DNA from: an uncultured Marinilabiliaceae bacterium
GTDB lineage: Bacteria; Bacteroidota; Bacteroidia; Bacteroidales; Marinilabiliaceae
Assembly: GCA_905235955.1 (NCBI GenBank)
Contig: CAJONN010000035.1
Location: 1 to 14,331 of the forward strand
DNA length: 14,331 nucleotides
Direction of reading: 5' to 3'
Part shown: piece by piece, positions 10,014 through 11,844 of the stretch
Layout: each line of letters opens with the position of its first letter
Position numbering within the stretch: position 1 is the first letter of the stretch
The notes under the pieces: generated by a model
Database searches by the model: none
What the model was told of the DNA's origin: nothing
Seen by the model: only the letters and a program-made list of their open reading frames with translations
Made by a program: the position numbers and the translations under genes

Positions 10014-11844
10014 ATGAAAAACTTACAAATTAGAACAATATTCACCTTCTACATTCTCTCTGTAATAATTATCAGCACAATACTATTTGTACCGATATTC
10101 TACTCACAGATAACAAGCATAATGGACACACAAGGCTTTGCTTTTTACACAATGGTATGTATATCGCAAGCTGCAATATTCTCATTACCAGCATTTTTAC
10201 TTGCTGTCATTTTGCTCAAAATCAGGTTGCCACGTGTTGCTTGCATTGTTGCCATAGGTCTAATGGCATTATTCAGCATATTCCTCATTATCGACATAAA
10301 AACATACGCCATCTACCGTTTTCATATCAACGGTATGGTGATGAACATGATATTGGGTCCGAATGCTACACAGATATTCTCCTTTGGTACAGAACTTTAC
10401 ATAATTGCCATTGGCACAATATTGCTCAGCATTGCTATATATTGCGCATTGTGGTTTATATCTGGCAAAATAAAAAACATACCTAAGCAAAGCTGCAATA
10501 ATTGGCACTATAGCTACCATATTGCTCTCAACCATTGGAGCTCACCTCACATACGCCTACGGCTCGTTTGTAGCTACGCCATCAATAGTAAAAAGTGCTC
10601 GACTCATACCATATCTCTACCCTCTCACAGCTCGCAATCTAATGATAAAACTTGGCGCAACACCTCCGCCAACAACAACCATAAATGCTGCTTCGGGCGA
10701 TGTAACCTATCCATATCAAGCACTACAAACACATACACCAGACTCTGTGCCCAATATTCTGATGATTTTTATCGATGCATGGAGCCGACGTTCGTTTACG
10801 CCTGAATGTATGCCCAACATCTACAACTACGCACAAAACAACACTCTCTACACCAACCACCGCACATGCAGCAACGGCACCCGAAGTAGCATCTTCAGCA
10901 CCTTCTTCTCTGTGCCAGACATATATTGGAAAGACTTTCAAACACAACATATCAGTCCGCTATTTATTGAGCGAATGCTCCAACTCAACTACGATATGCG
11001 CTTCTACCCAAGTGCCTCGCTCAACAATCCGCCATTTTCAGAAGTGGTATTCTTCAACGTGCCTAACCTACGCACCGAAACCGAAGGCAGCAGCGTGCGT
11101 GAACGCGACACACGAATAGCCACCGACTTCATAACCGACTTGCCACAAATGGCACAAAACAAACAGCCATTCTTCTCGTTCCTATTTTTCGACCTTGCAC
11201 ACAGTCCTGAGCTACCCGAAGAACTCACACAAACTTTCCAGCCATCGTGGACATTTGCCAACTACTCTGCACTCAACAACAATACTGATCCAACGCCATA
11301 CTTCAACCTCTACCGCAACTGTTGCCATTACATCGACAACTTAGTTGGACAAATATTGCAGAAAATAGAGCAACTCAACCTTGCCGACAACACTATCATA
11401 ATCATCAGTGGCGACCATGCACAAGAATTCAACGAAAACCATAAAAACTTCTGGGGACACAATAGCAACTTCAGTCAGTGGCAAACATCCGTGCCATTCA
11501 TAATGCATACGCCAACTGACACTGCACATATAGTTCAGCATCGCACCACTCATTACGACATTGTACCAACATTAATGAACCAATATTTGGGTGTCGACAA
11601 CCAATTTTCAGATTATAGCATAGGCACTCTGCTTGACACAACCGATGGTCGAGGTTGGCACATAGTAGGCTCAGAACTCAACTTTGCCTTCATCATAGAG
11701 GGCGATACCATTTTGGAAAAAACTGCCGAAGGCTCAGTGCAAATAACCGACCCTGCACTCAACGACATCACAAACTTTGCCATCGACCCTATCAAATTCA
11801 AGCAAACAACCGACAAAATGAACCATTTTTACAACGGACACTAA
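10014..11844 (+). CDS. YejM/PbgA-like membrane protein with sulfatase-fold domain, frameshifted
   Basis: The gene reads in one frame from ATG 10014 to about 10475 and in the +1 frame from about 10477 to the stop at 11842-11844. Dropping one base gives 609 residues: TM helices near 9-30, 44-68, 75-97, 126-147 and 160-183, a linker with IPYLYPLTARN, then a periplasmic alkaline-phosphatase-superfamily domain. Metal or nucleophile positions are intact: D254 (FIDAW), T289 (SNGTRSS), D467-H468 (SGDHAQEF), H482 (WGHNSNF). Five helices, an RFH segment after TM3 (compare RFHLHLNP in E. coli YejM) and YPLTAR (compare YPMTAR) point to the YejM/PbgA (DUF3413) group, which in enterobacteria controls lipopolysaccharide synthesis; LtaS-like phosphotransferase is the alternative. 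It starts 20 nt after comEC and is probably co-transcribed. Unless the frame is restored, TM5 and the catalytic domain are not made. Confidence 0.85.
10472..10478 (+). other. Frameshift site in an A6 run
   Basis: The upstream frame reads ...GGC AAA ATA AAA AAC ATA CCT and then runs through unrelated sequence to 10805. The downstream frame is blocked by TAA at 10471-10473 and becomes open just after it. Removing one A from 10472-10477 joins the frames as G-K-I-K-T-Y-L-S-K-A-A-I-I-G-T, which continues directly into a hydrophobic TM5 helix. The shift must therefore lie between about 10472 and 10495, and this homopolymer is the simplest place for it. Confidence 0.75.

Follow-up and report, generated by a model that had tools for sequence, protein, structure and literature searches.

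What is to be made of a gene whose two halves lie in different reading frames: a broken copy, a reversible switch, a recoded gene, a pair of proteins or a fault of assembly? The window analysed here, which spans contig C35 from end to end (14,331 bases), raises this question in a YejM/PbgA-like gene (positions 10014-11844, forward strand) whose frame changes between the fourth and fifth transmembrane segments (TM4 and TM5). The parent genome is a 2.18-Mb bin of 271 contigs, 81.3% complete, and the host is an uncultured bacterium, probably of gut habitat. The original prediction had listed assembly error, recent inactivation, phase variation in a homopolymer and RNA polymerase slippage as possible causes. 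Among these a recent, ordinary inactivating indel is best supported, and we give it a probability of roughly two in three; assembly error is less likely, and phase variation and polymerase slippage found no support.

The neighbouring genes are open reading frames with no evident break. Pfam identified SSB-like, M3 peptidase, HD, ComEC-like and TPR-SpoIIE proteins among their products and NCBIfam an exonuclease VII large subunit, while two proteins had no NCBIfam match. Counterparts in the related genome G003 align in one frame over nearly their whole length with the M3 peptidase, a 415-aa protein and the TPR-SpoIIE protein, and the ComEC-like protein is fully covered by a 668-aa relative.

Organization of the YejM-like gene

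The upstream open reading frame (ORF; 10014-10805, forward strand, 263 aa) encodes in its first 153 residues or so TM1 to TM4 of a DUF3413 domain, including the D-X9-H motif that the available text of PMC7018646 describes for the DUF3413 transmembrane domain, and the remainder is an out-of-frame tail. TM5, a linker and a domain of the sulfatase/alkaline-phosphatase superfamily follow in the +1 frame, which is open from 10474 to 11844 (forward strand) and contains the 440-aa downstream ORF (10522-11844, forward strand). Possible starts in this frame are TTG at 10522, ATG at 10642 and later ones, and P0003, the copy found in the protein database, begins at ATG 10975. The upstream product matched DUF3413 in Pfam over profile positions 16-161 of 248, with 39.4 bits against a cut-off of 27.1, and the downstream product matched Sulfatase (PF00884) over positions 1-297 of 301, with 89.8 bits against a cut-off of 25; both domains are thus recognized, on a chain that is broken between TM4 and TM5.

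A six-frame search for DUF3413 matched profile positions 4-161 in one frame as far as base 10487; the match resumed in the other frame at base 10486 with positions 160-222, a piece that scored under the curated cut-off. Codon usage, modelled on the eight other genes of the window, favoured frame 0 in all five 90-base intervals before 10464, gave a tie in the interval at 10464 and favoured the +1 frame in 14 of 14 intervals from 10554 to 11724; the last interval, which overruns the end of the gene, slightly preferred the third frame. Since the profile match and the codon preference switch frame at the same place, the break is present in the sequence as given. By hydropathy, the upstream product has four transmembrane segments, and a single further one opens the +1 frame. 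The halves therefore do lie in different frames, as had been predicted, with the break between TM4 and TM5 of five helices, and the arithmetic of the predicted joined length is right (the total is equivalent to 609 codons).

The family name needs more care. YejM proper acts in the control of LPS synthesis and LpxC turnover, and in Escherichia coli and Salmonella YejM/PbgA/LapC combines a five-TM DUF3413 domain with a periplasmic domain of sulfatase fold. The unbroken relatives of the window gene have the same domains in the same order, and one of them, P0001, matched the YejM structures 5i5h and 6xlp at about 3e-26. However, the NCBIfam model NF038282, whose cut-off is 825 bits, gave only 120.5 bits for the downstream half, 139.6 for P0001 and 154 for a second unbroken relative, P0002, and did not match the upstream half. 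These scores lie so far under the cut-off that we call the gene YejM-like and not YejM: the predicted resemblance holds through DUF3413 and Sulfatase, whereas assignment to YejM itself does not. The window gene also differs from YejM/PbgA/LapC in that this copy is frame-broken and in that its distribution within the genus is patchy, not universal.

Position of the frame change

An A6 run is present at 10472-10477 (forward strand), as originally noted; the prediction that the frame breaks within it was not confirmed. A +1-frame stop, TAA at 10471-10473, means that the change lies 3′ of the first bases of that stop, and codon usage sets an approximate 3′ limit, so that the likeliest interval for a one-base change is 10473-10503 (forward strand). 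The codon-usage model put 20% of its weight on positions up to 10477, that is, on the A6 run, 77% on 10478-10500 and less than 3% further on. Between 10473 and about 10503 the choice of site affects nothing but a variable loop, and the protein alignment, in which this loop is too variable to pick the exact base, is consistent with the same interval. A lysine that stands just before TM5 in P0001 can be matched by eye with the +1-frame lysine encoded at 10489-10491, a weak hint that the break may lie 5′ of that codon. Given the model weights and the variable loop, the A6 run is one of several possible sites and cannot be taken as a result.

Relatives and the reality of the break

A protein-database search with the downstream half returned 739 homologues at E ≤ 1e-30, of which the best 120 are considered here. 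Of these 120, 118 combine DUF3413 and Sulfatase in a single chain and two, the split copy P0003 and P0035, do not; 115 reach a length of 573 aa or more. Nearest to the window gene among the unbroken ones are P0001 (84% identity, 605 aa) and P0002 (70%, 601 aa), and no unbroken in-frame copy above 84% identity occurs among the best 120. Six relatives come from named genome records, all of them Bacteroidales: three Paludibacteraceae MAGs, one Prevotellaceae MAG, a Bacteroidales MAG from horse faeces and Prevotella cerevisiae. The plasmid records searched gave no match, and we found no literature on YejM with a frameshift in Bacteroidetes.

The database search for the upstream half as a separate protein yielded one form alone, P0121, which matches the window identically and is recorded on three contigs; this search was weakened by a query of which about 110 of 263 residues are out-of-frame tail and by a length limit outside which full-length relatives fall. 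P0003, the downstream end from its ATG, is likewise on three contigs, the longest of 34,206 bases; since the window contig has only 14,331, at least one other assembled contig carries the same break. All alleles found for this gene, in the protein database and, for the downstream half, among the best 120 of 739 homologues, were out of frame.

We also asked how often genes are broken elsewhere in the assembly. The comparison took 41 of the 271 contigs of the window genome, the longer ones being cut to their first 20 kb (703,952 bases in all), and 80 stretches of G003 (1,590,977 bases). It found 172 G003 proteins with a close counterpart (best match with at least 45% identity over at least 60% of the length), at 171 distinct places. 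Only one place was broken, namely the YejM-like gene, so the sequence is not generally rich in indels, which bears out the original view that it is not generally error-rich. The reverse comparison gave one broken place in 169: a 1002-aa ORF of the window genome (L055:4525-7531) has a counterpart in G003 that changes frame at L123:5940-5967, on contig C9.

These data bear directly on an error of assembly or consensus, in which the real gene would be unbroken and the frame change of the contig false, for example through mixed strains. The bin is fragmented and incomplete, and the three contigs with the split form may share reads, in which case they could amount to one observation. The ComEC-like neighbour is recorded on two contigs and its cluster stands for three member sequences, so that variants (or fragments) of this protein exist. 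Against an error stand the identical split on three contigs, at least one of them distinct from that of the window, the single break in 171 places and the four A7 runs of neighbouring genes, all of which sit in open frames. We consider such an error unlikely, and less likely than recent inactivation, to which it is nevertheless the chief alternative; we infer that the break is real DNA.

Divergence of the broken copy

With P0002 as outgroup, 11 changes were private to the window lineage and 11 to P0001 in the upstream half, and 18 and 22, respectively, in the downstream half; with P0004 as outgroup the counts were 8 and 7 upstream and 13 and 18 downstream. On these counts, whose power is low if the break is young, the broken copy has diverged no faster than its unbroken 84% relative. 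Three readings follow: a break younger than the split from P0001, an artefact, or a gene whose decoding goes on. Both halves look to be under constraint, and their normal divergence would also suit an assembly artefact or some form of continued decoding.

Homopolymer runs and the possibility of phase variation or recoding

Envelope genes are typical targets of phase variation, and slipped-strand mispairing at the A6 run could in principle toggle the gene reversibly. The break does lie in or near a homopolymer, and in one relative (locus L033) the counterpart of this gene loses its frame at a C9 run. However, the A6 run is ordinary. The eight other genes of the window hold 13 A/T runs of 6-7 bases, the A7 runs among them, all in open frames, and codon shuffles of the YejM-like gene gave a mean of 1.6 A/T runs of at least six where two are observed; the tract is not longer than composition predicts, as a phase-variable homopolymer would be. 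Nor is it kept. The longest A run in the loop DNA was 1 to 4 bases at ten orthologue loci (L002-L006, L031, L032 and L034-L036, of which L005 and L036 are identical in sequence), while L033 gave no motif match. As no in-frame form above 84% identity appeared among the best 120 homologues and the break may fall outside the tract, we regard phase variation at this site as very improbable.

The orthologue of L033, from the Paludibacteraceae MAG RGIG9042, goes out of frame at its C9 run (L033:4100-4125), in the linker that joins TM5 to the sulfatase-type domain; the gene is the same as in the window, and the place and the tract are different. In the genus of L033 the gene is found in three of six genomes, and the two other copies are unbroken, their open frames coding for 611 and 618 aa. 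The C9 run, known from one assembly, is a better candidate for slipped-strand mispairing than the A6 run, and it is a possible phase-variable site or a possible assembly slip. In three relatives, a second sulfatase-type stretch of 22-23% identity lies upstream of the YejM-like gene (L031:687-1097, L032:1802-2539 and L033:2784-3209), which suggests a paired arrangement.

Some full-length protein could also be made from the broken gene by slippage of RNA polymerase or by ribosomal +1 shifting. The lack of accelerated divergence and the recurrence of the identical split on three contigs would be compatible with this, and there is a precedent: according to the available text of PMC4256274, the interrupted tssM1 gene of Citrobacter rodentium is rescued by slippage at an A11 run. 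That gene resembles ours in having an A run at the frame break and in being associated with the envelope, but its run is of 11 As and its rescue is proved by experiment, whereas the window has six As, known from sequence alone. In the reporter study of which part is available as PMC6260861, slippage of the E. coli polymerase was undetectable below eight As, although that enzyme is not one of Bacteroidales. A programmed site would be expected to keep both the break and the slippery sequence in relatives; those among the best 120 homologues are unbroken and none of the ten loci has an A run above 4. A recoding site is therefore not conserved, and we hold recoding to be no likelier than the phase variation weighed above.

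Probable loss of function and apparent dispensability

The reading that we prefer is thus a single-base, frame-shifting indel that would have arisen recently, in a Bacteroidales lineage, in the TM4-TM5 loop of a gene for a YejM/PbgA-like inner-membrane protein. The product would be a stub of four helices followed by a meaningless tail, and it would lack the membrane-anchored periplasmic domain; from the sequence we infer that the break probably abolishes function.

It could be argued instead that the two ORFs give separate, cooperating proteins, or that the four-helix part works alone, and in Salmonella the five-TM domain of PbgA does hold the growth-essential role (PMC7018646, in the text available). 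The cut, however, precedes TM5 instead of following it, translation in the downstream frame could begin no earlier than the TTG inside TM5, and the database search for the split upstream form, with its partly out-of-frame query and its length limit, retrieved nothing but that form. A functional split seems the most doubtful of the explanations considered.

Inactivation would be in keeping with the distribution of the gene. At E ≤ 1e-60 it was found in five of 15 genomes of the genus and six of 71 of the family, and four members of the genus that are at least 97% complete (G002, G004, G012 and G014) are without it at this threshold, G004 having a divergent DUF3413 protein over the cut-off. With only five of 15 genomes carrying the gene, its loss seems to be tolerated, and members of this genus can apparently live without it, in contrast to Salmonella, where the transmembrane domain of PbgA is needed for growth according to the same partial source.

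The window genome has two further long sulfatase-type genes, on contigs C50 and C77, with apparent membrane segments; their products, of 614 and 688 aa (L163:685-2529 and L164:547-2613), have no DUF3413 match, and a DUF3413 search of this genome gave no match besides the YejM-like gene. These two proteins are possible partial substitutes.

Frame-shift pseudogenes of dispensable genes are a general class in bacteria, and the window gene shares their traits: a single frame change in a well-kept gene, unbroken relatives and absence from congeners. It is probably a young pseudogene, of a gene that its genus can seemingly do without.

Significance

A broader idea would be that the DUF3413-sulfatase family is a contingency locus in gut Bacteroidales, independently switched off in different lineages by homopolymer frame-shifts, with the A6 run nearby in the window and the C9 run in L033. 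We think this highly unlikely; if it were true, envelope control would vary between strains. Similarly, if the reads held mixed alleles, this would suggest that uncultured Bacteroidales switch an envelope regulator at strain level. The locus carries the caution that a frame break beside a short homopolymer does not by itself make a switch. As it stands, the case is of little importance: it would illustrate how a Bacteroidales lineage loses an envelope gene that it seems able to do without.
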